Assembly: GCA_034190875.2 (NCBI GenBank)
Contig: CM067358.1
Coordinates: 47,570,951 to 47,634,950 of the forward strand
DNA length: 64,000 nucleotides
DNA from: Urechis unicinctus
Taxonomy: Eukaryota; Annelida; Polychaeta; Xenopneusta; Urechidae
Direction of reading: 5' to 3'
Part shown: in pieces, positions 3,500 to 48,602 of the stretch
Position numbering within the stretch: the stretch's first letter is position 1
Layout: each line of letters begins with the position of its first letter
The notes under the pieces: model-generated
Database searches by the model: none
What the model was told of the DNA's origin: nothing
The model's input: only the letters and a program-made list of their open reading frames with translations
Translations under genes and position numbers: made by a program

Positions 3500-4075
3500 A
3501 GCAAGCGGCATGTCTGGTAAGGTTTTTGTCATGATGTAATGTAGGCAATAGCACAAAAACCATTCCCGACCTAAAACAGGTCTCTATGCTGTTGACTCCA
3601 ACATTGGCTGAAATTGTGACCTGGTTATCATCTTCATCATCATCATCAAATTGTCTCGAAACCAGTGATGTCGTTGATTTCTGTCAATTTTCTGATTGCT
3701 AAAATTCATCAATATCCATTTGTTATCAAGTTATGATGATATTCAGACCTTTATTTACCAAGCCCTACAAGACGTCTGGGTATTTATATTATCGTTCAAC
3801 CGGAGCTATTATTGACCATCTTATACACAAGGAAAATTTCCACTACGACTTCATTGTCGCTGGGAGAAACTATAAAATTACCTTCAAACATTGGTTTGAA
3901 TGACAGCATTCCCGCAATTCAAACATAAACAGTTTTTGCATTTCCCATAACATCGACCAAGAACGACAGAAAATTCCGATCTGTATCAAAAGAATTCGCC
4001 AAGTTAACAAATGAACCTATCTACGAGAAAGGCGAACCTATCTAGGTGATACCCGGGGTGATACCATTCGCCAAG
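3500..4075. other. No gene seen
   Basis: Unique sequence before duplication copy B. The phrase attcgccaagtta occurs near 3993 and again at the left edge of copy B near 4067. This could be a short boundary duplication, but it is too short to be sure. Confidence 0.4.
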
Positions 4076-15343: not shown

Positions 15344-15550
15344 TGATTAGTTAATTAAATATTTCTGCATGTATATATAAAGTGAAGCGAATGTTTTACA
15401 TTTATCAAATTAATTAGTTTTTGTCAATAGTACATACATATTTCGAACAACCTAGAATCGTATGTTAATGAGTTATAAGACCTGGCTTTGCTACCAGGAG
15501 AATATCAGAAAGATTCTCTCTAAAATTAAAGTTAAATTATTAAAATCACC

Positions 15551-15614
15551 ATCTGATATAAACAAGATAATATCAGATTAGACATTAACTGGTGATCATA
15601 AGATTATCACCAGT
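15551..15614. other. Pair of adjacent perfect hairpins
   Basis: atctgatat pairs with atatcagat (15551-15579), and immediately after it actggtgat pairs with atcaccagt (15588-15614). They lie upstream of the first coding exon of the channel gene. A role is not evident. Confidence 0.8.
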
Positions 15615-15925
15615 CCATCAGATCAGCGCAAGATTCGTTTATTCCCTCTAATTATTTCAATATCTCAATCATTTCATGCACTTAAACCTTGAATAATCAA
15701 TGCCAAGTAATTACTCCTGTATATTGTCAGAATTGTATTTATCTTAATGCAAAATGCCTCCACACCAACCTATTACATTGTTTATATGCTGCAGATTAAT
15801 AACGAAAGGAAATCGAAAAATCGAAATGAAGTCGAAAGAAAAGGGCAAGTAACAAACAATTCCTGTCTCTAGGTTTTTTAGCGAGCTACAATTTTCCTTA
15901 ATAATCTGCCGTTTGTAATGTGCAG

Positions 15926-16025
15926 AAGAAGGCCAGTGGAAACACCTCTTCTACACATTTTCCCAGGAGACGACTCTCCATGGAGTCCGTTATATCACAG
16001 GCGAAACGCGCTTCATGCTACGGAG
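15926..16025 (+). CDS. Candidate N-terminal cytoplasmic exon of the DEG/ENaC gene
   Basis: An acceptor (tgtgcag) precedes and a good donor (ggag|gtaagg) follows. It encodes a Ser/Thr- and Arg-rich stretch, then [19 protein letters not shown]/ENaC proteins carry a gating-related His-Gly motif in a small-residue context just before TM1; ASCYG sits in the right place with Tyr for His. The exon ends in phase 1, while the TM1 exon needs phase 2 (or 0 with an alternative acceptor at 17420). A small exon is therefore probably missing between them, or this exon is wrong. Confidence 0.45.
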
Positions 16026-19000
16026 GTAAGGTTCTCCATCTTCTATTTAATATAGAAACTCCATACTACCCTAAATTTAGCTCGGCCTTTGACGAAATTT
16101 CCGCGACATAACTGCAAAATGCAGCAATGCACGCGATCCTAAAGTTGTTTTCGTAAAGCGGGTTTATTGTGTTGAACATTTGACAGCAATAACCCTCCCT
16201 CGATTATGATGACGTAGTTATTTCCATACAATTTGCCATATCGACTTATCGCTGCATTTTTCGAATTACCCTTTGTGATGAATTTCTCAGTGGACACACA
16301 GTGAAAACAAAGCCGCGTACGGAAGTCAGTACGCAAGATATTGTGGCAACCTAAACCCAGTCTGCCGAACCAGGGCGTGTACGAAATATTACAATACAAG
16401 CCCGAACTGAACTGTAGAAACACGATCAGTTGACGACTAAACTGTAGTCCACAATAACTAGTCATTCTACAGAAACACGATCAGTTGACGACTGAACTGT
16501 AGTCCACAGTAACTAGTCATTCTACAGAAACATGATCAGTTGACGACTGAACTGTAGTCCACAGTAACTAGGTATTCTACAGAAACACGATCAGCTGATG
16601 ACTGAACTGTAGTCCACATTAACTAGTCATTCAACCGATCCGCCGACGACTGATTTAGAAATATTACGGGTTGATTCCCATGTTGCAATTCTTCTATTAA
16701 TATCAATTATGTAAAGTATGGACTGCACTTGTACAAAACAAATAGTGAGCACACCGCGTGTCCTAGCATTCCATTACTTGTCAGTGGCACGCACTTGCAT
16801 CAGCCTCCGTATAACCATGGCAATCCGATTAGTAGCAACATATGAATACGCAATATCAAAGGCTGAATGATTCACGGAATATTCGCTTGGAACACTGAGT
16901 CCATCATTTCGTAGGTACAATCTCATGCTAAATGGAACAATGGAAAGGGATCCCTCTCAAATATCTACTTCACCTACGACAAAGGACAATATGGATTCAT
17001 ATATCATAGTGTTTATTCCAACGAACCACCTGAATCACCACTTTAATTTATATATATGCTATTATATCAATTATTGTAATCAACTTTGGCATTTTTTTAA
17101 TGTGAATGACCTGCAATGCCGAACAAATTACTTAATCGCATATCTCAATTACAGGAATACTGAGTGCATATATAATATGCTACAATGTTTTGTGGTCCGA
17201 CAAAATGGACCTACAATACAAACACACTGTTAGCCTGATGTTACAAACTGCCTTCACCATTCCGTCGGAAATACACGCCGGAAACGGAGCAGAGATAGTC
17301 TATATATACAATCTCTGAGCAGAGGTCGAAAATATTCAAATGAGTTAAATCAAAACATCGCGACATCACAATTCTTGGTCCAGCCCGGTATTTTAACAGC
17401 TGCAACATTGTCAACACTAGTTTTTGCACTCCAGGGTGCTCTGGACTATAGTGGTTCTGGCAGCTACCGGTTTCTTCATCTGGTTCATGACAGATCGTCT
17501 TCTCTACTTGTTGAGTAACCCCAAAGCTGTCGACGTCGAAGTCATTTACACCGACAGCGTTGACTTCCCTACAGTGACCATTTGCAACCAGAATCTCTTC
17601 AAGTTGGTCATTATGATCTGATTGGATCTTATCCTGGCATCGTTTACATTCCATTTTAGTCATTTCTATTCTTTCTACATATATAAAACTATCAGATACT
17701 GATATCATTCAAATTGGACCATATTTTCGAAAACTGATTTTCAGTAAATCCTGGTATTGTTCGGGTGACAGTAACTCAACATCACTGATTTCATGTACTA
17801 TATGTTCCCGGTCGCATTGAGCCATTCGCTATGAATATCATCTTTATGTAACCCAGGACATTTTATTCGACCATATCTTTAAAATTTGATAACCAGGGTA
17901 TTTATAATGGATAATACGTGAGTATAACATGTTGTTGGATCCCATTGCAGGACGTCCGCTAGCCACCAGCTGGCACTGCATGACATTGTTGAAGACAGCT
18001 TCCGTAGTCTACAACTGGGACACGCAGGTATGAAAGCATCAATTATCATAATTTACTGGTTGGTATCATTTTACGAAATAGGGACGCAAATCCAAAATAT
18101 TACACGGTTCATTGCGCATGTGCGAACCCAGCACCGGACAATTAGGTGGACGATGTTGACCCACATTGCCGAAGACGATGTGGGAAGCGCGTAGCCCGAA
18201 GTGGTAGGGGTGGGGCGGTTGTTGGAAAGGGACCATCTTAACACCAGGAACATTTTTGAAAAATCAGATGCATTCTGTACACTTTTCTACAAGTCAATTT
18301 ATTGTACCAAAAACTCCAATAATAACAGATATAAAAATCGACCCTATTAAAATATTTTATTTTTTTATACATGACAAAATATAAGAAATTGACATTCGGC
18401 CATTAAAGTGAGCATTTAACCGACCAACAACATAGTTTATACAAGGTTACTATTATGGGTCACCAGAGGGCGATTTCGAGAAGATCCCGGACAGTCACCT
18501 GGCCGGACTCCGACAAGCCCACGCTGTCTACGTAGATATCGGCGTACAGGTATGTCAGCTGGCGTGTACGCGTCTCCATGGCGACTCTTGCTGTTCCGTC
18601 ATTTACGACCGCACCACGCGTACATGTTCCATCACCCCCCTGGCTACTAACTCGCTCGGCGTGTCTCTCCAACCGATGAAGCATTCTGATTACTTTCGGC
18701 GAAAACAATGCGAAGGTCAGTATCTGTGTGTAATGTTTATGTACGTGTATTTGTTATTTTTGTCATATCAAGTCAGTGCGTATTATTATCTGCTATGTAA
18801 CACCGTGGAATTCCATATCAAATCAATCTGGTTTGCACCGCGGCACAATATGGACTTTGAGACATAACACACATCTTATCTTTCGTTTTGAACAATTACT
18901 CATTTTAATGTGCTATCTATAACCTATTTATAATTAGCGTACATCTGTCAATCATGACGTCTAAAGGAAACACACCTTCAATTTTGACATTATAACCATC

Positions 19001-22000
19001 GCCATGATAAACCAATGGTTTAAATACACGTTACAGAATATCGTTGATGTTATTTTTCATATTAATTTGTGTAAATAGTGCAACGAGCTGCAAATTGCTC
19101 GTTTGAAGATGGGGTCTGTACCAACTTCGTGCTGGATTTTACGCAAGCATCGTCTTGGCTACTTGTGCCTGAGGATGACAAGAAGTTGGATGTGCCGCAC
19201 CCGGAGTTTGACCACACCACAATGACAAGTAGGGGTACTCCCCTACAATGGAAGTTATAATCTGGTTGCCATGCAACATAAATACGTCAGCATAGATACT
19301 AACTATATAGGTAGAGAGCGGGGGAGTATTGTGTTAGCTTGTATCTGACAGTGTGTTTGGTTGTTCGTCTGTCTGTTTATCTGTCTCACTGTCTTTCTGT
19401 CTGTCTCTCTGTCCACCACACGTAGACTTTGTGGCTGTCTGTCTTCAGAATCTGGCCACTACTTGTTAGCTGCTACCAAGTTTGTCCAGCCCGCTGCGCG
19501 TGCGCATCTGATATCGCCGTTCATTCTAGCGGAAGACAACACCTGTCTGACATTCTACTTCCAGGTCAACCATTCAGTCATTGTTAGATGAATCGTAACA
19601 GTCACATTAAGAACATGTTTTGCCGACGAGCACGTGGAATCATAGCGCTCACGATTTATATCTCTTGAGATACAGGGATTTATTTATACCGCAGGTTCAA
19701 GGAGGGAGCATTCGTATCCTTGTGCGCTCCCAAGACGAGGCACTCGAGATGGTATGGTCCCACGAATCTAACCCGGAACCAACATGGCGTCGAGCGTCCC
19801 AGTCACTTCCGGCTGGGTATTACAGATTAGTATTTGAAGCGGCTACTGGGACTTCGTCTGATCCGCTAAGCGTAGCTATAGATGACGTCATGATTGGACC
19901 ATGTCTCCCGGGTAAAATTGTTTACGATCTTTATGTTGCGTTATAGAAAAAAGTAACGAGATTATATGCATATATTATCCCCTACAACATATGTTGACAC
20001 CTTGTTGTTATATTGTGCTTCACCAGAACCATTATGTAAGGAGAATGCAGCAGGTTATGGGTTTCGCGGAGGGCTGTCACAGACCATCCATGGCAAATCC
20101 TGTCAGCCCTGGGACCTCTTGGAACCATTCCTACGGCCTCAGCTGTTTTCTTCCCAAAACGAGGAAATAAGGGAATCCTTGTTACCGACATTAGAGAACT
20201 TCTGCAGGAATCCCGATAATGACGTCAGAGGTCCATGGTGCTTTACAGAAACTCCCACAAAGACGATGGAATATTGTGATATTCCCTATTGTGGTAATAA
20301 TCTTTCTGTGTGTTTGTAATATCATCATATGTTATGGGAAATAATTTGTTTGGAACGTACATGTTGTATTCAGTTGTTAAATAGGAGGAGAACAGCAAAG
20401 CGTTCGTAAAGCTTTTCTGATAATGTTCCGTCACATCTCCCAGAACGCACTGTAATGCTATCCAACATTCCACACCCCTCCGCCAAAATTACCACAGCCC
20501 AAGCGTGACGTCACTTTTGAACCATTGTCATGGATAATATACGCATGGGTTTTGCTGTTGCTTTTATTTCTTGTTTGTAAGTCATAAAGTAATAAGATAG
20601 TTGAGTTGTCATGTAAATTCGTTCATGTTTAATCAATAGAATGCCGTGATGTGGAATTCGCATGTGGGAATGGGAACTGTATCTCCCCCGGCCTGCTGTG
20701 TGATGGGAAAGATGATTGTGGTGATATGACAGATGAAGTGCAGGGCTGCAGTAAGGCATTAACGATAATACAAGTCGTGACAATAGCCATCCTTATATGT
20801 AATGTAATGAAACCTCGCTATATACCCAACGCATTAACGCCGAGTGGTTTGGATTCAACGCACTCACGGACAATACCATGTTTTTTCACAGATTTAACAG
20901 AATCCGTGACCTGCGCATTTCTGGGGGATTGGATGTGTGGATATAGCACCTCGAAAGATTCCAAATTGCAGTGGAGTCTGGGACAGGATGGAACAGACTA
21001 TGGTTAGATGACTTCCTGTAGATTAATGAATCAATAAACGTCTCTGTGACATCAAAAGCATGTCATAGTGTGTTGGTATTAGGGACAGTCCGCTCGATCT
21101 CGTGCACTTAATAGGCATCGAATACATGCATGTTATCTTAGGGTGTATGTGTAACCTACTCCCCATCGCGTTTGATCAACTGCCTGATCAAAGGGACCCC
21201 GAATGAGTCGGGGATTTAAGTAGAGACACTGCGTCCTGACCGGAGCAAAGTTTGCTGAAGTGTCTAATAATCTTCAAGTGATGGATGACTATTTAATCAA
21301 ATACTATATACAAATTTATAGTTATGTAATGATTTCATATTTCGTACTTTTTAAAGATTAATCACCTTTATGAACTAACCTCAGGGGAGAACTTTATCCA
21401 CGTCAACATGGCTAATGCTTCACCTGGAGATGTCGCCACCCTGGTTTCACCTGTCCTTGACCCCACTGTGACCCCGGCCTGCATCCATATAGACTTCCGG
21501 CTCACAGGAAACGTTCAACTCGATATCTCATTAGCGTTATCAAATCAGCTCGTGGAAAGGGAGCTTCTCTGTATGTTGAGCCCGGGTATCACAGCGGACT
21601 GGATCTCCACCGATATCCCTCTACCTCGAGTCAGCGGCAACTTCTCTATTCAGTTGGACGCCATTTTGATGTCGCTGGAGGGGGCTTCAGTTGATGTAAC
21701 AAATATCACAATGTTGGATGACTACTGCGACCTGTATACTTATCAAGGTTGGTTTTTGTGAAATGTGGTGCTCAAGTACCACGACAGAGTTATTTACCGA
21801 AATGCCAAGGGGTAATTCAGCTGAATGCAAGACGTACAACCCCTATTACGAATTATTCCATTCGATTCCTTCCCGACGTCATCGACGACAAGGAAAATTA
21901 AAACCACATTTAGCATGGGATTAAGTATTTCAATATATACTTCGTCTTTTTACTATTCTCAAAAATCCATCGCCAAATAAAGCTTCACCAATAATGTTTT

Positions 22001-23915
22001 TCATACAGTTGTAATCATCAACGAAACTTCGAATATAACGACTAAAGCAGACACAGTTACGCCCGCCAATGCCACCGGTAGCGACAGCACGATGGTGGAA
22101 TCCGTCGACGATTACTCTATTACGGCTAACTCGGAAGCCACTATCAATACGTCCCAGCAGTGGGTGGTACGGGAGTATGTCAAGTATGTCACGTTACATA
22201 GCAAGGACGATCATGGAATCTGCACGTCCAATGCAACATGCAAAAGCTGCCATCTGAGACTAGCACCAATGCAGGGTGAGCTGTAGCTGTTTTGTACACT
22301 CACCTGAATAGAAGAATGTGCAGCTTTTACTGGAACTTATACTTTCATAACACGTTTTGTGAATAACTGATTACCCTAACCCAGTTAAACTTATGTCCAA
22401 AACATAACCTCACATACGTATGTGCTGGGTAATCGTCATTTCATATTAAATAAGTATTTGCTATAAAATTGTTAGCTATTATATGTTTTGCATTTGATCC
22501 CATAGCTTGCCTGCCGAAGTTCATACAAAAATACAACCAATCCTTTGGCGCGTCTAGCAACTGTCGCCACCTTCCGGGCGGAGGTGAAGATTTCGGCTTT
22601 AGGTCTTGCCAAACGGAAGCGTTCGCACAGGGCGCCAATGTGGTTAATTTCAGAAACAGAAGTTGTTACGTCAAAAAATGTGACAGCCTGGATGACGTCA
22701 TGTTGATCAACACGAGAGGTGGCTGGGATGTGTGGATCATAGAAGGTAAATCCCGTTACATGGGTACGTTATGATGACATCATCCCCCGACCTCTCATGA
22801 AATGTATCTTTTTTGTTATCATTATTGCTGGTGTTTTAGCAAATTATGAGCCTGAAGGGATTGAGTGTTCGTTTGATGACGACTGCGCGTGTGGATACCG
22901 CGCGCTCTCCAGTAATATCAACGATAAATGGTCGCGCGAATACGACTTCAATGAGGCCGACAACAACAACAACAACAACAACAACTCAGCCAACAGCACC
23001 AACAGTACCATCAGCACCACACTGCCCTCAAGTAAGCTGATGCACTGCGAAACGCCCGATCAACAGGATCGTGACAAAACAATTCGCGTATGAATATCTC
23101 TGTTCAGGGTTGTGTTAAAGTATAGGAAATTCACCTCTGCAAACTACGAGTTCAGGCTATGTTATTCACACGGCCTTGTGGGGGGTATGCGTGTGTGTTT
23201 CCCCAGATAGCTACTTGTCTGTACACAGGGATGGCTCCCCTCGACTGGGTGAGTGGACGCGACTTGTCTCTCCGGTCGGTCACGTGACAGTTGACAGCTG
23301 CCTTGTCTTCCGCTACTTCACGTATTTCATGGACATCCGGGTAAGGCGCTGTCGAATGAAATCATTTGGTAGTAAATCCAACTGACAAAACACACAGTTT
23401 TAACATGAAAGTTGAGTGAAACCGTTAAAGAAACCGGGCTTAAATAGAGGGGTTATTGAGATGTACACTTGAAAAAATCGTTGAAGCTGACCGATAAATA
23501 TTTAATGGCCTTGGAGAGTTGATATGTCATTGTATATCGCGTGATTGGATGTAAGTGGTAAAATGGGCTAGTTGATGGAAATACCTTGCATCGTGTAGGT
23601 ATACCGCGTCACAGAAGAAGCCATCGAACCCCTTCTTGTTATACATCATGACGGCCAGGATCTCGACTGGCATACCGTAACCAGTGACGTCACGGCCGGG
23701 CAGATAGCGCTGTGGTTTGAAGTCCGGTATGGGGAGAACGTGGTGTCCAATAGCATCGGCTTTGATAGCATTCGATTAAGAGAAGGAGCATGCCTACACG
23801 AAGGTATCGTGTTTCATGTAATGGTTGTGTGTGGATTTTGAGAGATGGTGGAGAACGGTAGGGAGAGAGATAGGTTGGCTGATAAGAAGAATAAAATAAT
23901 GAGGAGTAAGTTAGG

Positions 23916-23958
<43 letters not shown>

Positions 23959-24273
23959 GTGGTGTCCAATAGCAGAGTTGTCGGCTTTGATAGCATTCGA
24001 TTAGAGAGAAGGAGCATGAGAGAGAGAAGAGAGAGAGAGAGAGCTCTGGGAGCGGGAGAGCTCTTTTTTTTTCTAAGGGAGAGAGAGGAAGAGAGAGAGA
24101 GAGAGACGAGAGGGGAGAGAGAGAGAGTTGGGAGGAGAGAGAGAGAGAGAAAGAGATTCAGAGAGAGGAGGAGAGAGAGAGAGATGGGGAGAGAGCTCCT
24201 CTCAGAGAGATTCCCCTAAGAGAGAGAGAGAGAGAGAAGAGAGAGAGAGTGGAGAGAGAGAATAGATTGTGAA

Positions 24274-24321
<48 letters not shown>

Positions 24322-26583
24322 GAGAGGAGAGAGAGAGAAAGAGAGGAGAGAAAAGAGAGGGAGAGAGAGAGAGAGAGGAGAGAGAGAGGGGGAGAGAGAG
24401 AGAGGGAGAGAGAGAGACCGATGGAGAAACGGAGGGAGAGTGAGAGAGAGAGAGGGGAACATACAAGAGCGCGAGAGAGAGAGAGAGAGATTGAAGAGGA
24501 GATATAATGAACATACAAATGAAGGGTGCAGCAAATGCGCATGAAAGGTTATAAGATATATGGAACTTTCTTGGTTTTGGTTTTCCAGTGGTGTCTCCAT
24601 TCGATTGCAACTTCACACAAGAGAACATATGCCATTACCAGGATGACAGTCATGGTCCGTACAAGTGGATCCGGAGCAAAGATTACAACGGTGCATCCTC
24701 AGGTATGTTTCAAGGAATCCCTGTTCGTGCCTGTTGCCGACGACGAGTAGTATATAAACTTGTGGTTCTGGGCCCCTATTTCTATGTCCCACAACTTCCC
24801 GTGTCCGCGTCTGTTATCAAACAAAATGATGGGCATTGGAAGGTGAGGGGATGGAATTTCTTAAAGTAACTTAACCTCACATTACATCTACCATTCCTAC
24901 GTGTTTTGGGAATTGCTTATGTTCGTGATGGTTTTTCCTCATGTTGAATTAAGGTAATTTCTTCATGCGAACCAGTGACAAGCTAGCTGGGAAGGGCTCA
25001 GTCGCTTTGTACACGCCGTATTACCAGTACAACAACTCGTGTGTCAGCTTCTCATATTTCATGCAAGGGACATCCAAGGACCCAATCAGCACTCTGTCAC
25101 TATCTATCGTCCTCGCTGACGAAACCCGTGACGTCATTTGGAAGGTGCTTGGAATAACAGACGGCAAATGGCACCATGCCCAAGCGCACGTTGTGCCCGA
25201 TATGCTGGAACTTAAATTTGGCTACTGGGTCAATGAGTTCAAAGTCAATGGCACTTTGAGATTTCGCCTCATGTTTGAGCTGAATGGAAATGACGTCAGA
25301 GCAGGAATTGATGATGTGTTGGTGACGTCAGGCGATTGCAACAATGAGCAAAGTATGAATTTGATATTTTCACTGCCGTCTTTTTGATAAATGGTACTTA
25401 TTCTGTATCAGGAATTGTATCATATTTATTACTTATTTACCATTATAAAGATATGTTTTAATCATGTTTCAACTGACAGATTGTTCTGATGACGAATATA
25501 AATGCCTGCCTAGTTTCGCCTGCATCCCGACTTCGAGCAGATGCGATGGCATCTCCAACTGTGAAATGGGTGAAGACGAATCATGCATTTCAGGTGCTAG
25601 TCCCTGTTTAATTCACTTTAACCAGAAATACACATAAGTCATTACTTACATTTCATTTTCAACCAGAGAGATCTGGGTGGCATGATGAGAGAAGTAGCAG
25701 ACAGGAATGTTTTGAGCAGATAACAGAACCTGGGTGGATGGAGGCGCGGTTATGACAGAGAAGCCCCTTGAGCATAAGCCCACAGCTGGTCCCATTAAGG
25801 ATTTCAGTGATATTGGTGAGTACCAGGTCATCTCGTGTATATCATGGTAGGTATTCAGTTAATTTGGGAGGATGCTATTTTTTATACAGTTCTTAGGGTA
25901 AAATATGTACAATTTTTTTTTGCCCAGTTATAAGTAAGTGCTATTTCAAGTATAGTTTGTTGATCAGCTACTTAAAAGTGACTTAAATATTCATATGTGA
26001 TTGCTAATTATATCAGGTGATAGAAAACACATTAATTGTTACCTGCAGTCCAGTTTCCTGTGTAATCACCGTTGATAAGCTTAAGTATCAACTATATATC
26101 AGCTTACCATTTTTTTAACAGGATCAGCACTTAACCTGACAGAGATATATCACAGATTAGGTCACCAAGGAGAAGACCTTATTTACAGGTGCGGTATCAG
26201 AACGTATGAAGACCTTATCTACAGATATGATACCAGAACAAAAAGCATCCTTCAGTAGGAATACATGGGTACATCAAATTGTTTTTTTACATGTGTTTAG
26301 CTGCGTATGGGAAGGTGAACCGTGTTCCCACCTGAACTTCACCAAGAAAATTACAGATTATGGCCTGTGCTATATGTTCAACTCAGGCGAGCAACACACG
26401 CTACGTACAGCAAAGACGGGTAGGAATCGTTCGCAACCCGCTTTATTGTTACAAGTCTAAGTATTAGGACCATAGCATTGATTGGGGTAAAGAGAGGGAG
26501 GGGGTGGTGTCCAGGCAGTCGAGCATTTTCTAGCAGCTGCTAATTTTATGACGAACGGCCCTCTCATAACCCCCCCCCCCCCC

Positions 26584-26614
<31 letters not shown>

Positions 26615-29600
26615 ACACACACAACCAACCCCCCCCCCCACACACACACACACACACCACATTTCACCCACACCACATTCCTCCACGGAACCCTGTTTAC
26701 GGGTCTCATATATTGCCATTGTTTGTCATTGCGTAATGCTGATTATTTCGTAATGGTAAATTGTGCTTTTTGTTAGCGAACAACGGTTGCACTTTATGAA
26801 TCACTGGTATGCCATTTCCGTCACATGTTCTATGTATACACGTGTCTTTTCTTTGTAATTAATATGTTTTTTCTTTTTGTTAAAAGGGTCGAGATTCGGG
26901 CTAAGTTTGACCTTGAACATAGAACAGTATGAATACATGAGAGGTCCTCAGAGTGATGCTGGAATAAAGGTAAACATTTACCTTAAAAACACGGAAAGAA
27001 TAAAAGAACACCTACATGGCAATGTTGTATCTCTGTGCTGCTTTTCGGGTTATTCATTAGAGTGACCTTGCTGTTGTCATGTAGATGTTTCTGCACGCCA
27101 AGCACGAACTCCCTCAGGTCCGTGACCTTGGTTTTGCTGTGTCACCAGGACTTCATTCATTGGTCGCCATCAGGCTTAATGAGGTCAGGTTATTATTGAC
27201 AAACATAGTTGATTAAAAGGTTGATTTTCTCTTACAAGATCACATCAAATACATAAAGTACTCATAAGGGGAATAAGGCACTTTTCCAAGGTCGGTCAAG
27301 CTACATTCAAATAAAGATCAAAAATGCATTACTTGGTAAGCCGATATTTTTGCTTTCTATGCTCATTTTGCAGTCTATTTTTGTCCGACATTAAACCAAA
27401 GAGTTTATAGCTACCAAGCTATAAACTCTTTCATTAAATCATCATCAAATATTATAATTATTGATTTCCAGGCCGAGAATCTGCGTCCTCCATGGGGAGA
27501 CTGCGCTGAGAAACCGCTCCGCTATTCGGATACGTACGTCTACTCCAAGTGTATGCGCGAGTGTGAGACGGATGGAATACTCTCCAAATGTCACTGCCGG
27601 GATGCCTACATGCCTGGCTACACTGATGGTATGTTGACTGAAGTCATCAGTGCTATTCTCCTTATCATTCCATATCACCTGTATCATCATGTACTGTCGT
27701 GTATAATCTTGGCAGTGCTAGAGCTGTATACGTCATAAACTCATGTGTAGACGTGACGTATCTTGGTTGATATGTAAAGCGGTTAATTCTTGACCAGCGG
27801 AGACTTGCTAGTGTTTGTATCGTTGTGTATTTGTTTATTTTTGTCAGAAAAGCCTCCTATATGCTCACTCAGCAAATACTTCTCCTGTGCCATACCTCAC
27901 ATCAGTAAGTTATCTTATTATTGTACCTTAGTGGAAAGTTTCTGTGGGATGAATAAGTGGAGATGACGGGATCCTTATAAAGGAAGGCACCTTAACTAAT
28001 ACTGAAGCATATTATTATCATAGAACGAAATTGCAATCATAAGAGTATCTCGTACCTTGTAATATATTTTTCAGATGCGCATATTTATATCAATATTCTA
28101 AAGCTTTCCACCATTTTCTAGGCTTTTATTTGGTATTTTATTATGCAACATCGCAATATACAATGTTGCATCATTTGGCAAACAATTTAATGTCGCTGTG
28201 CTTGACAGATTCCGTGAACTCAACCACCAAGCCATGTCCCTGCCCTAAGCCCTGTCACCAGACTATATTCGAACCTGCCCTTTCCCAGGCCGCTCTCTCC
28301 TACCTCTCAGTGGACAACATTCTCAGCGCCAACATCGACCAGCTCGTACATAAATACCACTCAGCTTTAGAAGCCCGTCAGCGCGTCGAACAAACCTTCG
28401 TCGAAGACTTATCATGGTTGAAAAACATCCAGAAACGCTACGTCGACCTTCGCCGATTTACTAAAACCTACCTGGGAGATTTCGACCGGTCGAGCTTTGC
28501 TAAAATCTGGACAGCGTCACAGACTTTGGTCGAGATATTCCGATCGGACATCAGGGAGTTGATGGGGGATGTCCCTCACCACCTGGCGGCGTACAGACGC
28601 GAATTCGCTGGTCCCGTTGAACAGATGGTTGTGTACCAGGCTGACTTGACAAAGACAATGCAGTCTGTGAGTCAAGTGCTCGGCGGTATTTTTGACAGGG
28701 ACGAAATCGACGAAGCAGCTGTGGACATCCTGCGCCCTCTACTGGACGCCGCGCACCTCAGAGGCGCTCTAGCGACCGCAAGCTACAAAGTGGGTGTGAT
28801 TGAATTGATTTATGTATTGATATGGATGTAAAAGGAACTACTTTGTTGATAAAATGCAATAGAGGGGTGAATTTGACGTGCCTCATATGAAATGGTCGGA
28901 TGTAGCGAGTTGATGCTGCGGTTACTGCAGAAATTCTGGGGGACTCTGAATCCGCCCGGAAATGGCAACACCGGAAGCGAATCTTCGCAGTACCTTCCGC
29001 GTCATTTCACTGTGACCAACCGAGGCTGCAGCAACTTGCTGGGGCGGATGTCACAGGAACTGGATTGGCTGACACAAAACATCTCCGGCTACCGTGATGT
29101 ACATATACGTTCCCTAAACCACCCTGTTTGGTGTGCTTTCTGGCGGGAAATTAATTGTCATTTCTATGCAAGAATAATAAGCGTGGATTTTACTGGTTTC
29201 AGAATGACCCAGTTTCAAGGAACGCCTCTGTCGACGATCGCAGGACGATGACGACGATTTTACTGGAAAGCGTGACGGCGTACACTGAAAATTCCGACGG
29301 TGTCGCCACGTGTCTTAGCGAATACCGAGATGCCTTAAGTCAACTGGAAGAGTGGACGAATGACGCTGAAGCGCTCGCCTCAAGTTACATGGAAGAAGAA
29401 TTCTCCTCGAACATCTTTAATTACACGGACGAAATCTCTGAAATCGAAATTGACGAGCAGTCAGTGGACCAATTGCTTTACGATTACGCCCACGCCGAGA
29501 TCTCGCGCCTGGACATGCTAAATCATTTCGACCCTGAAGGCCGCAGTTCCGACGTGCATGCGCACATAACAAGTTTCATTGGCAAAATCGAATCGCGCCT

Positions 29601-30709
29601 TACTAGTCCCTTACGAAAACGAATAGACAATGCCCACAAAGATTTACTGACCTTTTACAAAGCCGCTTTCCAGCGTGCTTGTCTATTTGAGAAATTTATT
29701 GGCGAAAATGCATTTTATACAAAGGCAGCTAACATGAAAATCTGGCAGCTTCCGCGGCCCAATCTGGAGCATCCAACTCGATTCGCTGAAACGGCACGCG
29801 AATTTTGGCGAGTTTGGAATCGCGATGTAACGATCAATAATTTTGCTACCAATGTGGCCGGGCGATATATCGAGGAAGGTCTGGATTCCTTTTGTCGACC
29901 TTTGGTGAATATTATTGAAGATTTTGACGACCAATTGATAGTCTCAAGACAGAAGCTTCTGATGGCGCTGGAAGCCGTGACAGATGTCGAGAAAGATTAC
30001 ATCAAACTCCGCGCCATAGATCATCTCTTCATACTGTGAGACCAACTGATTTCGTATAATCTGACCTACTTAAATAAATAACCCCGATTTTAAGCTGCCA
30101 GAGGTTATTGAAACTCAATTTCAGTAGTCGATCAGGGGTCATGATATAAATATGTGATTGTGGGTGTGTTGCAGGAAGAATTTTCTGAACATGGATGTAT
30201 ATTTTGCCCAGTTGAAACATCAGAATGTTAAGCAGCAGGAAGCATATAGTGTCACCCAGTTCCTCGGTAGGTGTAAGACATTACAAAGCAGGGATGCTGA
30301 AATCAATCTGGAAATAAACGTTTTTGTCAGTTTCAACATTCTGAATGATTTCAAATAACATGAACCTGCATTATACACATAGAATGTTTTTTAAACATTC
30401 GAGATACTTGCGTTTTTGTCAAAACAAACAATATTGTGAATTTCAGGTGATATTGGAGGTTTTATGGGATTGCTGCTCGGCGGAAGTGTCCTCACTATGT
30501 TTGAACTCTTTGACCTCGTTGCATTTCACCTGCTAAAGAACCTCTTCCGGTCCGGCGTTCCTAACGGCAAGAGCGAGAACGACCCGGATGATCAAAAATC
30601 CATGGCTGATTCTGGTCTGAATTGTGTCACCCCCGGCCTGACGCCAGATAAGGACCGAGACAGAAATATGGTATTGATGCAACGGTATTTAATACTTAGC
30701 ATCTACTAG
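15926..30709 (+). CDS. Giant multidomain DEG/ENaC-family sodium channel subunit, about 30 exons
   Basis: I joined exons wherever an AG acceptor, a GT donor and the reading phase agreed. From the TM1 exon to the stop at 30707-30709, 29 exons chain without a phase conflict and give about 2,003 codons; an N-terminal exon at 15926-16025 is less certain. The family forms trimeric cation channels with two membrane helices and a large ectodomain. Diagnostic parts seen are TM1 followed by [10 protein letters not shown], the GLCYMFNSG segment, [18 protein letters not shown] and TM2 with [15 protein letters not shown], including the G-x-S filter. Usual family length is 500-700 residues. The excess is about 1,080 residues of PAN-like, MAM, kringle and LDLa modules in the finger region and about 510 unrecognised residues before TM2. 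The exon joins are inference from sequence; the family call is firm. The ligand, partners and cell type are unknown. Confidence 0.9.
16410..16635. repeat. Minisatellite, 54-55 bp unit, four copies
   Basis: The marker gaaacacgatcagttgacg recurs at about 54-55 bp spacing near 16418, 16472, 16527 and 16581, each followed by a tagtccaca block. It forms the inner end of the right inverted-repeat arm. It lies in the intron after the proposed first coding exon. Confidence 0.88.
16585..16876 (-). repeat. Inverted-repeat arm, right
   Basis: The reverse complement of this segment matches 12908-13185. Its outer end is ggctgaatgattcacg. I see no clear target duplication at the outer ends. Confidence 0.85.
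17435..17602 (+). CDS. DEG/ENaC TM1 exon
   Basis: Acceptor ctccag, donor aa|gttggt (weak, but it is the donor that keeps phase with the next exon). It encodes TM1 ([18 protein letters not shown]) and then palm strand beta-1 with [14 protein letters not shown], one of the most conserved segments of the family. An alternative acceptor at 17420 would add four codons. The upstream join is unresolved. Confidence 0.93.
17951..18027 (+). CDS. DEG/ENaC post-beta-1 exon
   Basis: A 77-bp exon with acceptor cattgcag and donor cgcag|gtatg. It takes two bases from the TM1 exon to complete Lys and ends in phase 1. It encodes [20 protein letters not shown], the start of the finger region after beta-1. It has no ATG and is too short for simple ORF finding; phase agreement on both sides supports it. 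Confidence 0.75.
18467..18715 (+). CDS. PAN/apple-like module 1 exon
   Basis: A single phase 1-1 exon of 83 codons, acceptor gtcaccag, donor gcgaag|gtcag. It has a PAN/apple-like cysteine layout: VCQLAC, seven residues, [15 protein letters not shown] and a closing FRRKQC. PAN modules bind proteins or glycans extracellularly. The gene frame opens from 18467, although its first ATG is late in the exon. The longer minus-strand ORF over 18460-18708 is its shadow. The domain name is by pattern only; MANSC-like domains are an alternative. Confidence 0.75.
19079..19911 (+). CDS. MAM domain 1 (three exons)
   Basis: Exons are 19079-19228, 19449-19564 and 19695-19911, with phases 1-1, 1-0 and 0-1. The order [42 protein letters not shown], then [10 protein letters not shown] is the full MAM signature. 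MAM domains mediate extracellular protein-protein adhesion. The complete module enters and leaves in phase 1. Confidence 0.93.
20027..20293 (+). CDS. Kringle domain exon
   Basis: One phase 1-1 exon of 89 codons. It shows the kringle order: [39 protein letters not shown], then YCDIPYC. The six kringle cysteines are present, as is the RNPD-x-PWC core. The segment between CQPW and FCRNP is somewhat longer than in plasminogen kringles. Kringles bind proteases and other proteins through lysine pockets. I know of no other DEG/ENaC with a kringle. Confidence 0.95.
20640..20750 (+). CDS. LDL-receptor class A repeat 1 exon
   Basis: A phase 1-1 exon of 37 codons with the six-cysteine LDLa pattern: [20 protein letters not shown], then [12 protein letters not shown] and GC. 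The acidic Ca2+-binding [12 protein letters not shown] box is intact, so the repeat should fold. Confidence 0.95.
20892..21747 (+). CDS. MAM domain 2 (two exons)
   Basis: Exons are 20892-21002 and 21385-21747, both phase 1-1. The start reads [14 protein letters not shown] and continues [14 protein letters not shown]. The second exon has [27 protein letters not shown] and [11 protein letters not shown], and closes with [13 protein letters not shown] Gly-poor variant of the MAM C-terminus, but the order is right. Confidence 0.85.
22009..22275 (+). CDS. Ser/Thr/Asn-rich linker exon
   Basis: A phase 1-1 exon of 89 codons between MAM 2 and the second PAN-like module. It has many N-x-S/T sequons ([20 protein letters not shown]) and repeated Thr/Ser/Ala, suggesting a glycosylated stalk, then [11 protein letters not shown]. 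No domain recognised. The acceptor is tcatacag and the donor gcagg|gtgag. Confidence 0.75.
22506..22745 (+). CDS. PAN/apple-like module 2 exon
   Basis: A phase 1-1 exon of 80 codons with the run [48 protein letters not shown] and GGWDVWIIE. The cysteine spacing and the closing aromatic strand resemble PAN/apple or MANSC-type modules and parallel the module at 18467-18715. Domain family by pattern only. Confidence 0.72.
22841..23803 (+). CDS. MAM domain 3 (three exons) with a polyasparagine tract
   Basis: Exons are 22841-23031, 23207-23340 and 23599-23803, phases 1-1, 1-0 and 0-1, the same pattern as MAM 1. It opens [16 protein letters not shown], has [38 protein letters not shown] and closes [12 protein letters not shown]. 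An (AAC)n run near 22960-22985 encodes about eight Asn inside the domain, followed by NST sequons; this repeat is likely to vary in length between individuals. Confidence 0.88.
23860..24510. repeat. Large (GA)n microsatellite in an intron
   Basis: About 650 bp of interrupted GA repeats between the MAM 3 and MAM 4 exons. The many ORFs on both strands (RERER or SLSLS peptides) are artefacts. A fragment resembling the end of the preceding exon is embedded at 23960-24018. Confidence 0.95.
23960..24018 (+). repeat. Partial copy of the MAM 3 exon end inside the GA tract
   Basis: It matches exon positions 23741-23792 (tggtgtccaatagc, then tcggctttgatagcattcga, then gaaggagcatg) with a 7-base insertion after tccaatagc. 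It is flanked by GA repeats on both sides. Confidence 0.92.
24589..25352 (+). CDS. MAM domain 4 (two exons)
   Basis: Exons are 24589-24702 and 24954-25352, both phase 1-1. Start: [20 protein letters not shown] with KWIRSK. The second exon has [32 protein letters not shown] and [15 protein letters not shown] complete MAM with the expected DNFT/E-type start and IDDV end. Confidence 0.92.
25480..25593 (+). CDS. LDL-receptor class A repeat 2 exon
   Basis: A phase 1-1 exon of 38 codons: [20 protein letters not shown], then [15 protein letters not shown]. Six cysteines and an acidic box are present, though EMGEDES is a slightly altered Ca2+ box. This is the last shuffled module before the channel core resumes. 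Confidence 0.93.
26122..26419 (+). CDS. DEG/ENaC core resumes: GH and GLCYMFNS exons
   Basis: Exon 26122-26188 (67 bp, no ATG, phase 1-2) encodes [19 protein letters not shown]. It joins in phase to 26301-26419, which encodes [27 protein letters not shown]. The Y-x-R-x-GH and C-x4-GE-x-C spacing and GxCYxFN are hallmarks of ASIC-like ectodomains. Seeing them directly after the LDLa exon places the module array within the finger region. Confidence 0.93.
26569..26657. repeat. Poly-C and (CA)n microsatellite
   Basis: Runs of 10-17 C alternating with (ca)n in an intron of the channel gene. ORFs here are artefacts. Confidence 0.95.
26887..27183 (+). CDS. DEG/ENaC palm-domain exons
   Basis: Exons are 26887-26969 (phase 1-0) and 27085-27183 (phase 0-0). 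They encode [15 protein letters not shown] and SDAGIK, then [33 protein letters not shown]. This matches the conserved order GLxLxLN ... G(I/V)K(V/M)xxH ... P ... V.PG ... of the palm. Confidence 0.9.
27398..27431. other. Perfect 15-bp stem, 4-base loop, intronic hairpin
   Basis: aaagagtttatagct pairs exactly with agctataaactcttt around the loop acca. It lies about 40 bases upstream of the acceptor for the exon at 27472, so it could affect splicing, or mark a MITE relic. Confidence 0.9.
27472..27904 (+). CDS. DEG/ENaC thumb cysteine-rich exons
   Basis: Exons are 27472-27628 (phase 0-1) and 27848-27904 (57 bp, phase 1-1). They encode [42 protein letters not shown] and then [17 protein letters not shown]. 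The P-W-G-D-C start, the C-x3-C ... C-x-C ladder and YMP are classic for the thumb disulphide ladder. Confidence 0.94.
28209..30035 (+). CDS. CPCPKPC exon followed by a 510-residue unrecognised helical insert (three exons)
   Basis: Exons are 28209-28789 (phase 1-0), 28931-29098 (0-0) and 29203-30035 (0-2). The first opens [20 protein letters not shown], the last cysteine motif of the DEG/ENaC thumb. In ordinary family members TM2 follows about 50-80 residues later. Here about 510 residues intervene, rich in Glu, Leu, Arg, Lys and Ala with few Pro or Gly and many heptad-like stretches (for example [20 protein letters not shown] and [18 protein letters not shown]). It looks alpha-helical, possibly coiled coil. 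I recognise no domain. It stays open and in phase across three exons, so it is coding and not an intron read through. Cellular side: extracellular by topology. Confidence 0.85.
30175..30709 (+). CDS. DEG/ENaC pre-TM2 and TM2 exons with C-terminus
   Basis: Exons are 30175-30266 (phase 2-1) and 30447-30709 (ends in tag). They encode [40 protein letters not shown] and [19 protein letters not shown], then a short polar cytoplasmic tail of about 55 residues. GGS is the G-x-S selectivity filter and ELFDLV follows as in ASICs. I see no PPxY ubiquitin-ligase motif. A cryptic donor atg|gtattg at 30670 could splice to further exons instead of reaching this stop. Confidence 0.93.
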
Positions 30710-31202
30710 GCATTGACAATGGGAAGTTATTATGGGGTGTGTATGTGGGGGGGGAGTATCATATTCCATGCAGCTTGCTGAGTAACAAATGCACTCATGG
30801 CAAAGATATCATTCGAACAATGTCATATTACCTTCTTACTGGCCCAGCTAGTCTTTGTACAGACAATGATATCATATATAGGAGCATTCCAAGGTATATA
30901 TATGCTGTACAATACAACATGTGATGGATAACACGAAGCTCTAAATGGTAATTCGGAGGAGAGAGCAGGCACTGGTTAGCGTTTATATGTCAAGGCACGT
31001 CAAGTGTCCGCCAGAATTATTTAATATGTCGATAGACACATTTATACACCATAAGATATTAGTTGAAATATGAATATATATAACTGTCGCACATATTTTA
31101 ATATATAATGTGTGTCATATTTAGAAGCCACACTGGCTATCATTTTGTTCCTAGTTCGCTGTTGTGTTACATTTACGTTTTGGATGCGTCGCCATGCTTC
31201 CG

Positions 31203-31204
<2 letters not shown>
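30710..31204. other. 3' flank, no gene seen
   Basis: No canonical aataaa is evident close to the stop of the channel gene; the true 3' end is undetermined. Confidence 0.4.
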
Positions 31205-31289
<85 letters not shown>

Positions 31290-31290
31290 T

Positions 31291-31335
<45 letters not shown>

Positions 31336-31351
31336 CATATATATATATATA

Positions 31352-31405
<54 letters not shown>
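31205..31405. repeat. (TA)n microsatellite, about 200 bp
   Basis: Nearly pure TA with a few TAGA, TACA and TCTA interruptions. The YIYIY ORFs are artefacts. Confidence 0.97.
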
Positions 31406-31409
<4 letters not shown>

Positions 31410-32247
31410 TTATCTGTAGTTGTATTTACACTGTTCATCGTTCGTGAGTATTTATCCAGAACTGTTAATTTACACATCTTCATTTATCGACGGTCATAGG
31501 GTTTCGCTCGACCGGAGTCCAGCTGATTGGCAGTGATAGATGCAAATAAAAGTTGTGTGTCTAACTCAGCTTATTTCCTACAATAGACAAGGAGCTTTCA
31601 ACTAATAAGATATGTGAAAACGTCATTCATGTCACGTCTTAACTGTTATTACGTAAGTTAGACCGAGAGAGCTTGGTTCCGCGTCGCCCATTTCAGGCCA
31701 ATGTTCTAAGTACTTCTCTAAGTTCCATAGCGGTTAACTTCACTGACAAAGCACTGTTCTGCTTCGGTGAATAGGTTATCATCGCCGATATTTATTCGTT
31801 TACGGTCAGTCTATTATCCCGGCTGTGTTCTTGTACTCTGATGTGAACTGTGTCCTTCGATGTGTGTCTTTCCTCAAAATATTCCAACTAATTATTAACA
31901 GATATTGGTGAGGTGATTGATTTTGTATTTTATTCTGCGGCAGACACGTATGTTTTGTGGATAATAATAATTTCAATATTCTTCACAATACAAAGAAATT
32001 GGGAAAGGTGGCTTTCAGATTCTAAAGAAGATGTCATGGCTAATTGGTCTTATGTTAATGATCAATCCATAAAAATTTGGGAACGATGTGGATGTTTCGA
32101 AGTTCGATGGTCGCGTGCGAGGTGATGCAATGTTGACAGTTACATCTAGCGGCGGTGTGTGCCCCTAGCAAGTATCATTTTATTTGATCTCGTAATTGTG
32201 CACCCTGGTCTTGCATGAATATACCATGGTCCATGAATGGGGTGACG
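31406..32247. other. No gene seen
   Basis: A 70-codon ORF at 31913-32125 has a hydrophobic segment but no recognisable domain or splice context. Otherwise empty. Confidence 0.4.
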
Positions 32248-33925: not shown

Positions 33926-35115
33926 TTACACATCCGCTATCTCACTCTTTTTCGTGTAACTTGGTGGATTCGTTTTGTAATAATCCCAGAGTTCGGCAGT
34001 AAGTTCGGATGCAGCCAAGTCACTTGCATTTATCGAAAGAAGCTTCAATACTAAAACCCCATCGTTACGGAGATAATCAAACACGAATCGTCTTGTGGTT
34101 TTCTTATCCTCACCCCGTCCGATCTTATCCATGTAGCGTAGATGCCGCCGGATGTATTCGAGCTGATCCCGACGAAAAAATGTCCTGGCGATCCAGGAGA
34201 TGAGGTTGAGCCCCGTATGATGCAGACGATGACCAGCCAGAACCAGATGACCATGAAAACTTTCTCGTTGAAGAAGTTGATGGGAAGGACGCATTGTACT
34301 GTATGCCGATGGATGTTACCTAGCTGCCGCACGTGGAAATCACAGAGCGTCACGCGCGGGAAAAGTCGCGAGGCCGGCCATTCCTCGTTTCGTGCCATAT
34401 ACTTAAGAATCTCAATTCCATAAAAATGATATTCATCCCCAAGAAAGAGATCCAGGAGGAATAGTTGACATACAGCGTTCACGAAGTACAGTATTTTATG
34501 GGTAATGTAAAGTGAGACGAGATAATTTCCATATTTGCGGCCGCAGAGAATTCGGCATCGTTTGTCGATGTAATGTTTGATTCGCGACCAGCATCCGTGC
34601 GTGTAGTCGCGATAATGGCCCAGAAAGCGATCCATTTGTCTCATCATATACCGAAGAGTTTTCTCTTTATTTTCGTTGTCATGGAGACCACGTCCGGCCT
34701 GTACCACATTCGCAATCTCTACTCCAGAACGGGGACTCAGTGAACGCCAAAATAAACATGGCAAGTAAAACATGATGGCTTGGAATAGCAGGATCATTGG
34801 TACCCACTGGTAGTACGTGATCATTCTCCGCGGAACTTCCGGCTTCGGGATATCCTCGTCGAAATTCTTATAATACGTATTTGATACGTAACACACTTTG
34901 TTCGTATATTCGGCGTAATTCGACGTGAAATGACCCGGCACCCAACAGTGGATTTGGTCACCGACGTATTGTTTCGTTGTCACTAAGATCGAGAACATGA
35001 CGAAGACGATGATGGTCGTGCTATGGTTGAGACGGTCGACGAAGTCGTCGTCATGTTTTGTGTTCGTGTTTCCGCTCAGGCCGAGCGGGGAGAGGAAGGC
35101 TAGAAGCTTAGACAT
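33926..35115 (-). CDS. Innexin A (gap-junction or hemichannel protein), one apparent frameshift
   Basis: Start ATG is at 35115 and the stop at 33928-33926, about 396 residues in one exon. Innexins form protostome gap junctions and nonjunctional channels. Seen in order: QYVGDQIHCW with the first extracellular-loop cysteines, the innexin signature YYQWVPMILLFQAIMFYLP, TM3, then FPRVTLCDFHVRQLGN and HTVQCVLPIN of loop 2, then TM4. At 34211-34214 (cccc on the plus strand) the frame breaks within TM4, and the correct C-terminus (SWIARTFFRRDQLEYIRRHL) continues in another frame. One extra base in that run would restore a TM4 of exactly the same length as in innexin B. This could be a sequencing or assembly indel or a genuine pseudogenising mutation; the otherwise clean ORF favours the former. 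Its relative innexin B lies on the opposite strand 18 kb away. Confidence 0.92.
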
Positions 35116-36627
35116 GCTGCGGAGTAGCGGGAAATGACGTAAACTTGTCGCTGTGTTGTCGACGTCAGCAAACGAAATGTAGAGAAAGTTCGCTGTTTGT
35201 CACTCTGAGAGTAGCGAAATGACTGAGCTTGGTGTGCAGTGGACGAGGGTAGCTCAGTGACTTACTTGGTGGTGTTTGCGGTAGATTTCTTAACTGTTTA
35301 CTTAGTTTCCTCTTGGTAACTGACGAATTCAGCTTAGCGGCGACGAAAAACCAAAGATGTATGCAACTCTGATCGACCTCATCGAGTTATGAGTACTTCC
35401 CGAGGGGCGTAAACGCACCGCTACCTCGCTTGGGTTACAGTCACACAAAAAGTTCTCCTTTGTTGACAACGAAGCTCTTGTTTTTTCACAAATCGCAGAG
35501 CAGCTCAAATTCATAGGACGCGGTAATTCAAACTGACCACGACATTGTTGTGGTCAGTCGACTTATATTGGAACCCACGGCAAGTTTTTCACACTTTGTA
35601 TTTACATCGCCTCGGCAGATCTAAGGTAACATGTGCAGAGTTAAGGCGCAAATCCGGATCAAATCGAAACGACGGTTACAATTAGATCACATTCACGTAT
35701 AAAGGCGTTCATTTGCGAGTTCTCAATAGCGTGAGTTCGAGATTACTCGTTATGGGGCTTAAAACCAACGGCTATTGAGGATTATCAAATGAGAGCCCTG
35801 GTCGTTAAAGGTGAGTTCCATGAGCAGGTATGAAACCGTTATAATCATGAGTTGAATCATTGTATATTGGTCACGCCCACCGATGTAAATCGGTCTCTTA
35901 TGCGGCCCGTAATCGCCCAATCAGAACGCGTCTTGTGTTGGTATTATGGGTGGGTGAGGAAATGTATGAATGTGAATTGTTTGTCATTCGATATTATCAC
36001 GGTATTATTCAGTATATAACATGCCTGGTTTTTGCTGTCTTCTGAATAGCTTGTCATGAAACCTGACAACAGAGATTTTTGGTTGTTAAAAAGTACAACC
36101 ACAAAAGACATTACTTTTTTTCTCGTTAAATGACTTATCCCCTTGCTTTTATCTGGAGGTTCCTAATTTACACTATTAGCCTTTTAGCAGCAATCGCTTA
36201 TATCCAACAAGAATGTACTAGTTCTGAATCATCGTCACACATTAGGCGTATTCAATCAACCGTTCTTCCCTCTCAGTGGGCAGTGGCCTCGAGCCTTGAG
36301 TGACCCTAAAGCTGACCAGGCCGATGACAATGAGATCCGTAAATGACGTCACAATTCCAAATATTGCAGAAATACTTACTCGATGCATAGTCATGTAACG
36401 TAATACTTAGACCTACCATATGGGCATATTAGTAGTCAGGTCAATGTTACGTCCCTCCAGGATCCTACCTCTGATCTTAGCCACGTTTCTCCCCTGTTTC
36501 AATAGTCTCTAATGATTATCAGGTGAATACAGGTATCACCAAATTATTGATGTCAACATGAAATTGTGGATTTGTAAGAATAAAACTTTGGATGATTGTT
36601 GAGAGTCATGGACGTGGTGAGGGGAAG
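35116..36627. other. Upstream flank of innexin A, no gene seen
   Basis: No coding exon recognised. This region would hold the innexin A promoter; no clear TATA or initiator stands out. Confidence 0.4.
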
Positions 36628-48600: not shown

Positions 48601-48602
48601 AC

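Follow-up and report, generated by a model that had tools for sequence, protein, structure and literature searches.

Several members of the DEG/ENaC channel family are controlled from one corner of their extracellular domain. In ENaC, the GRIP segment between helices alpha1 and alpha2 forms a finger-thumb wedge with protease-sensitive sites, and the finger inserts comprise 70-87 residues (PMC10178586). In the mollusc and annelid FaNaCs (7yvb, 8on7), finger helices alpha1-alpha3 together with helix alpha6 from the adjacent subunit build the peptide pocket, and a bound peptide displaces first the finger and then the thumb; the FaNaC authors name the same corner for ion and protease sites of ENaC and for proposed matrix tethering (PMC11026163). 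For the C. elegans MEC-4/MEC-10 pore, tethering by matrix proteins such as MEC-5 is an attractive model (PMC10148893). It is not settled by what means force and extracellular proteins influence DEG/ENaC channels; tethers have been proposed, but their nature is poorly known (PMC7958617). Here we describe a gene of the annelid Urechis unicinctus, at positions 15926-30709 (+ strand) of a 64,000-nucleotide stretch of contig CM067358.1 (hereafter the window), that is predicted to encode a DEG/ENaC subunit with two giant inserts at this corner, one of which is an array of extracellular modules.

The 30 exons of the model, all with GT-AG borders and all joined in phase, splice into a single frame of 2,037 residues ending with a stop at 30709, or of 2,069 residues with a likely extra exon at 25720-25815; the initial annotation of the stretch had estimated about 2,000. 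The parts of the gene are:

15926-16025 (+): exon 1, cytosolic N-terminus with the HG motif, entered in phase 1; aligns to TLHGIRHI of ASIC2
17435-17602 (+): exon 2, first transmembrane segment (TM1) and beta1; Pfam ASC 51.2 bits, hydropathy peak at residues 30-57, weak donor
17951-18027 (+): exon 3, presumably finger helix alpha1 (our naming, by comparison with ASIC), ending in phase 1; gene model and gene finder
18467-18715 (+): exon 4, PAN/apple module, the first in the finger cassette; Pfam PAN_1 33.4 bits
19079-19911 (+): exons 5-7 (19079-19228, 19449-19564, 19695-19911), MAM module 1; Pfam MAM at residues 205-357 against profile positions 1-157
20027-20293 (+): exon 8, kringle with the NPDND..GPWC stretch of plasminogen kringles; Pfam 71.7 bits and plasminogen alignment
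20640-20750 (+): exon 9, LDLa module 1; Pfam 40.0 bits
20892-21747 (+): exons 10-11 (20892-21002, 21385-21747), MAM module 2; Pfam 40.1 bits on 21333-21758
22009-22275 (+): exon 12, Ser/Thr/Asn-rich linker with N-glycosylation sequons; gene model, no Pfam match
22506-22745 (+): exon 13, cysteine-bearing PAN-like module; cysteine pattern
22840-23803 (+): exons 14-16 (22840-23031, 23207-23340, 23599-23803), MAM module 3; one of four MAM stretches in the spliced protein
24589-25352 (+): exons 17-18 (24589-24702, 24954-25352), MAM module 4; Pfam 38.4 bits
25480-25593 (+): exon 19, LDLa module 2; Pfam 26.3 bits
25720-25815 (+): probable extra linker exon of 96 nucleotides, phase 1-1, before alpha3; gene finder, splice sites and our reading
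26122-27183 (+): exons 20-23 (26122-26188, 26301-26419, 26887-26969, 27085-27183), finger alpha3, palm and beta-ball; Pfam ASC 36.3 bits and ASIC2 alignment
27472-27904 (+): exons 24-25 (27472-27628, 27848-27904), thumb with conserved cysteines; Pfam ASC 38.6 bits and ASIC2 alignment
28209-30035 (+): exons 26-28 (28209-28789, 28931-29098, 29203-30035), end of the thumb (PCPCPKPC), then the knuckle insert of about 490 residues; ASIC2 gap and paralogue insert profile
30175-30709 (+): exons 29-30 (30175-30266, 30447-30709), last palm strand, second transmembrane segment (TM2) with a GGS filter, short cytosolic tail and stop; ASIC2 alignment of core residues 833-898 and hydropathy

The exon chain contains no in-frame stop; the two other frames hold 84 and 122, and each of 681 placements obtained by sliding the exon pattern holds at least 71. 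A gene finder that was given no anchors on 15400-31500, only the codon usage of a paralogue and generic splice weights that we set ourselves, returned 29 exons and recovered 27 of the 30 model exons exactly, including those flanking both cassette borders. It missed 27085-27183 and 27848-27904, whose residues align to ASIC2, shortened 19449-19564 and added 25720-25815, which has good splice sites, keeps the frame and is likely to be real. The gene stretch scored 184 and its opposite strand 19; scores ranged from 2 to 31 over nine stretch-and-strand controls (the other strand of the gene and both strands of four other stretches, some overlapping each other or the training background) and from 5 to 12 over three shuffles. 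The top control scores, 31.0 and 28.0, came from the stretches and strands holding two innexin genes. A chance origin of the frame is ruled out by the Pfam E-values, the slid-frame control and the gene-finder controls. The intron between exons 16 and 17 contains a long GA-rich repeat (23900-24510).

A Pfam hidden Markov model scan of the spliced protein, the check proposed in the initial annotation, found all the expected families in one chain: ASC (282.6 bits, E 8.7e-84), MAM (201.7 bits, four stretches), kringle (66.1), LDLa (43, two stretches) and PAN_1 (26.6). Single exon frames gave, in order, ASC over TM1 (51.2 bits), PAN_1 (33.4), MAM (30.7), kringle (71.7), LDLa (40.0), MAM (40.1), MAM (38.4), LDLa (26.3) and ASC (36.3 and 38.6); taken alone, the TM2 exon (18.2) and exon 26 (16.1) fall under the ASC cut-off of 23.6. 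The modules and channel parts named in the initial annotation lie on one strand, in phase and in the order given for them. Within the list of modules, the first PAN, MAM modules 1, 2 and 4, the kringle and LDLa are matched singly; the second PAN-like exon (22506-22745) has no Pfam match and was assigned by its cysteine pattern only, and the third MAM, whose frames 22743-23090 and 23599-23838 have no match singly, is taken from the four MAM stretches counted on the spliced protein. The best alignments of the kringle are to plasminogen kringles 5 and 1, and it retains NPDND..GPWC, a stretch that is part of lysine binding.

The predicted protein is clearly a DEG/ENaC subunit. Its ASC score is 282.6 bits with the cassette spliced in and 296.9 bits without it, against a cut-off of 23.6. 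The closest solved structure to the channel core without the cassette is ASIC2 (6l6p; E 4.4e-63, 216.8 bits), ASIC1 (6ave) also aligns, and the two FaNaC structures match less well (101.4 and 75.7 bits). Only two membrane-like regions (19-residue hydropathy above 1.4) occur in the 2,037 residues, and they flank one large extracellular domain. A G/S-x-S filter in TM2 is a mark of DEG/ENaC channels, and residues 1962-1964 read GGS where ASIC2 has GAS. Further likenesses to ASIC2 and ASIC1 extend over TM1, beta1, palm, thumb and TM2, the HG motif before TM1 (TTLHGVRYI against TLHGIRHI in ASIC2) and 14 cysteines in the channel part (1 + 13), each matched to an ASIC2 cysteine in our reading of the alignment; seven conserved disulfides are described for DEG/ENaC (PMC10178586). 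ASIC H73 and K211 are the proton-gating residues (PMC10507113). By our placement in the alignment the K211 position holds lysine as in ASIC, whereas the H73 position also holds lysine, so that we do not file the protein as an ASIC. On these sequence features it is very probably a conducting channel.

The alignment to ASIC2 and ASIC1 falls into three blocks separated by two giant gaps. The first (between ASIC2 residues 102 and 153 of the construct) is the finger after beta1, where a cassette of 16 exons (3,249 nucleotides, 1,083 residues, 19 sequons) lies between alpha1 (exon 3) and alpha3 (exon 20). The second (ASIC2 379-397, 17 residues) is the alpha6/knuckle region, where exons 26-28 (about 28300-30035) supply about 490 residues. 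ASIC2 has only about 50 and 17 residues at these two places. The ASIC-side helix names are partly our own assumption and partly taken from papers on FaNaC and ENaC. Both inserts are thereby placed at the finger/knuckle corner that forms the FaNaC ligand site, and the two elements of that site, alpha1-alpha3 and the neighbouring alpha6, are both expanded in this gene. To our knowledge, no modules occur in FaNaC. The cassette position is comparable to the GRIP segment: ENaC alpha and gamma also carry extra finger sequence after alpha1 and extracellular gating control at that corner, but their inserts of 70-87 residues (PMC10178586) are not composed of shuffled modules, whereas the array here counts ten units. 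In the MEC-4/MEC-10 system the tether would be made of separate proteins; the array of the Urechis gene is covalent in the pore subunit.

Modules on symmetric phase 1-1 exon units are a classic sign of exon shuffling. Fifteen of the 17 cassette introns are in phase 1, the other two are in phase 0 and lie within MAM modules, and the remaining 12 introns of the gene divide 4/4/4. From this pattern we read the cassette as having been inserted into the finger by phase-1 exon shuffling. Skipping it would leave exons 3 and 20 in phase and give a 954-residue channel, so that a cassette-free isoform is possible. The knuckle insert found no better match in PDB than E 0.33; sub-threshold Pfam matches on it to DUF5344 (17.3 and 20.2 bits, cut-off 27) and to spectrin-like families (11.1 and 13.2 bits, cut-off 35) were taken as noise. 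Its composition leans slightly to helix by a crude estimate, and it is perhaps helical.

The fusion described in the initial annotation stands, and that account had overlooked both the giant knuckle insert and the gene family to which the channel belongs. We searched the genome (1.19 Gb, 926 contigs, the window being C17:47570951-47634950) with the insert and TM2 as query. The 43 matches comprised the window's own exons, loci on C17, C2, C12, C9 and C15, and TM2-only matches on C7, C11 and C3, and 20 genomic stretches from this search were examined by tblastn and Pfam. Two paralogues, one about 100 kb away (C17:47.707-47.7265 Mb) and one on another contig (C2:61.3025-61.322 Mb), share the order of the window gene: TM1, PAN, MAM, kringle, LDLa, MAM, more MAM-type exons, finger, thumb, insert and TM2. 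Their channel cores are 43.4% and 40.9% identical to it, respectively. A one-off fusion or an assembly error is ruled out by these paralogues of the same order.

The two copies differ from the window gene in that the C17 copy has a CUB module, between its second MAM and a further MAM before the finger, and in that the kringles of both are under the Pfam cut-off of 34.3 (28.7 or 23.5 bits on C17, 23.8 on C2). The PAN module of the C17 copy scores 24.7 bits in a single frame or 20.7 (cut-off 21.4), and two MAM halves score 13.2 and 15.4. In the C2 copy, PAN (20.3), MAM (25.4 against 26.4) and TM2 (23.3 against 23.6) are also below their cut-offs, and three of ten frames are without any family. 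The CUB module of the C17 copy seems to sit within one MAM (L026 9293-10000, L027 1-1137), a split-MAM reading that is our own; in the C2 copy the flanking parts are present and CUB is absent.

A paralogue PAN exon used as query gave 19 matches, which we grouped by hand into 14 loci, window gene included (one match on C3, 40% over 48 residues, was left out). At 11 of the 14, a knuckle-insert match follows on the same strand, some 5.6 to 10.3 kb downstream; the loci at C17:50940969, C17:50843388 and C12:62715281 do not fit this pattern. The insert of the window gene, which is more divergent, was not retrieved by the paralogue insert query. A number of copies are incomplete or disrupted. The copy at C12:62.73 Mb is reduced or rearranged, tandem units of about 3.4 kb at C17:59.759-59.771 Mb hold only the knuckle insert and TM2 among the parts searched, and TM1 of the C17:51.28 copy lies outside the DNA examined. 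Genome-wide, at least 150 kringle and at least 103 ASC matches point to large kringle and DEG/ENaC repertoires; with so many matches, the kringle is not rare in this genome.

For the pair C17:47.7 and C17:51.28, the ratio of nonsynonymous to synonymous substitution rates (dN/dS) was 0.36 over 287 codons of the channel parts and 0.40 over 510 codons of the insert; the cassette gave 0.33 over 730 codons, among which one in-frame stop occurs. Cassette and pore are thus both under constraint in paralogue pairs.

Channels at C15:32.035-32.055 Mb and C9:36.9088-36.9188 Mb carry a large insert at the same place in the knuckle (on C15, a single frame of 554 residues). Their TM1 and finger exons lie about 1 kb apart, with no module matched between them, and these channels are likely to represent an intermediate state. 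Because two cassette-free relatives hold a large insert at the same place, the insert probably preceded the cassette. A tree of 290 columns was rooted on four plain channels of eight (L001, L002, L003 and L007) and included two cassette-family rows that are reduced or partly read copies; it placed C9 nearer than C15 to the cassette group (support 83) and grouped the plain channels (support 100). With this moderate tree support, the order of events was probably the knuckle insert first and the finger cassette second.

When compared with a profile of four paralogue inserts, that of the window gene matches over 407 columns with E 4.9e-15. Those of C15 and C9 resemble the window gene's insert over about the first 60 residues only (profile probabilities 95.5 and 80.1), and between them and the C2/C17:28 inserts there is hardly any match (6.7 and 0.9); 20 shuffles of the C15 insert gave E of at least 0.037 against the four-paralogue profile. 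A single origin of all knuckle inserts is suggested by their position, not along their length.

Taken as a whole, the locus is best explained by a modular receptor array in the finger of a real channel, acting on its pore, an explanation to which we give reasonable though far from full confidence. The protein would be a subunit of an expanded DEG/ENaC subfamily, with two transmembrane segments and cytosolic ends, and would be expected to form trimers. In these channels the finger was opened between alpha1 and alpha3 and filled with PAN, MAM, kringle, LDLa, MAM, linker, PAN-like, MAM, MAM and LDLa, and the alpha6 region was enlarged by the knuckle insert. The computations show this make-up, the placing of the two inserts, the family, the order of origin (at moderate tree support) and the constraint in paralogue pairs; the working of the array is a proposal. 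The array may bind an extracellular protein or a matrix partner; binding to it, or tension on it, could shift the finger against the neighbouring knuckle, and this shift could open a Na+-selective pore, in the way that FMRFamide opens FaNaC from that corner. We favour an array-gated channel because both inserts lie in the FaNaC/ENaC control corner, and by this analogy we put the chance that the array acts on gating at about even. The initial annotation had suggested that the channel is tethered to or gated by matrix or a partner cell, which we too infer rather than observe and to which the insert positions add some weight.

MAM, PAN, CUB and LDLa are general binding modules, and the array might only cluster or position the channel at matrix, synapse or cell contact and leave the gate unmoved. 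The Ser/Thr/Asn-rich linker and the sequons of the cassette would suit such a stalk-like spacer. A mere anchor, however, needs no site inside the finger, between alpha1 and alpha3 instead of at an end, and in FaNaC movements at that site reach the thumb (PMC11026163), so that we consider passive anchoring unlikely, though a serious alternative. The resemblance to the GRIP position and a kringle nearest to plasminogen, with NPDND..GPWC kept, would also fit an array whose kringle, MAM, CUB and LDLa modules recruit a protease that cuts the finger, as a scaled-up GRIP mechanism. Yet kringles that reach only 23.5-28.7 bits in the two tested paralogues make this hardly family-wide, and no inhibitory tract was identified, no search having been made for cleavage sites; we judge protease docking improbable. 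Since these two kringles have decayed, lysine or protease binding would be special to window-like copies.

Family expansion, module turnover and clustered partial copies recall recognition receptors, for which the channel fold could be merely a trimeric membrane mount that conducts nothing. Against this, the HG motif, TM1, TM2, the GGS filter and the 14 cysteines are all retained, and the pore has a dN/dS similar to that of the cassette in paralogue pairs, which leaves a non-conducting receptor very unlikely. The module exons could finally belong to a separate gene nested in, or adjacent to, the channel gene, and the in-phase junction of exons 3 and 20 does allow a cassette-free transcript. 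But no ATG exon with a scored phase-1 donor lies at 16030-18460 and no AATAAA or ATTAAA at 25590-26121, so that in the stretches scanned the cassette has neither a first exon nor a poly(A) signal of its own; the gene finder joins modules and channel unasked, and the arrangement is repeated in the paralogue on another contig. Two genes are therefore extremely improbable, and the architecture is almost certainly that of a single gene. The fusion of a pore subunit to an adhesion and protease-binding array, as first claimed, is borne out by the phase-consistent model, the gene finder, the paralogue order, a cassette dN/dS below 1 in paralogue pairs and the absence of nested-gene signals in those stretches.

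Several observations weigh against a gated receptor array in a single channel gene, or against the history proposed for it. The gene model is a prediction from genomic sequence. A start-codon exon is expected upstream because exon 1 enters in phase 1, and upstream candidates are weak only, with none identified; the donors at 17602, 29098 and 30035 are also weak. No known stimulus, acid gating included, is predicted, because the H73 position is a lysine. The helicity of the insert, suggested by composition, and its nearness to the array are conjectural. The dN/dS figures come from paralogue pairs and not from the window gene itself, and three other paralogue comparisons gave 0.42-0.62, two of their cassettes holding a single stop each and one insert holding three; some copies are decaying, as in-frame stops occur in three cassette comparisons and one insert. 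In the tree, the split that sets the window gene and the cassette family apart from C9, C15 and the plain channels has a support of 81, the usual bar being 95.

Elsewhere in the window, two innexin genes lie 3' of the channel gene in long single frames, at 34057-35199 (-) and 52751-54007 (+), with Pfam Innexin scores of 284 and 324.7 bits. A minisatellite-like array at 48522-49182 has frames on both strands that read as repeated short peptides, and a segment carrying one and the same 90-residue frame is duplicated at a distance of about 4 kb, at 2-271 and 4041-4346 (-).

The channel is clearly of the DEG/ENaC kind, and its architecture was not found described in the open-licence literature: among the matches listed, judged by title and the start of the abstract, no such channel appeared, in agreement with the earlier remark that no published channel has this make-up. 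Records of such an architecture may exist in protein databases, preprints and subscription papers. Passages of two papers on DEG/ENaC phylogeny (PMC10507113, PMC9822975) mention no such modules, and "kringle" occurs 0 times in PMC9822975.

Tentatively, at somewhat less than even chance, we propose a lineage-expanded family of receptor-channels that combine a swappable finger array with an enlarged knuckle, in which ligand or tension would act on the finger-knuckle gate. Turnover of modules, with CUB gained and the kringle either kept or decayed, would suit each channel to a partner of its own. Since the array is covalently attached at the corner from which related channels are gated, the question of tethers would become open to direct test. 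The gene suggests that an ion channel can become a large modular receptor through exon shuffling into a loop, by a two-step change of which the products of both steps would still stand side by side in one genome.

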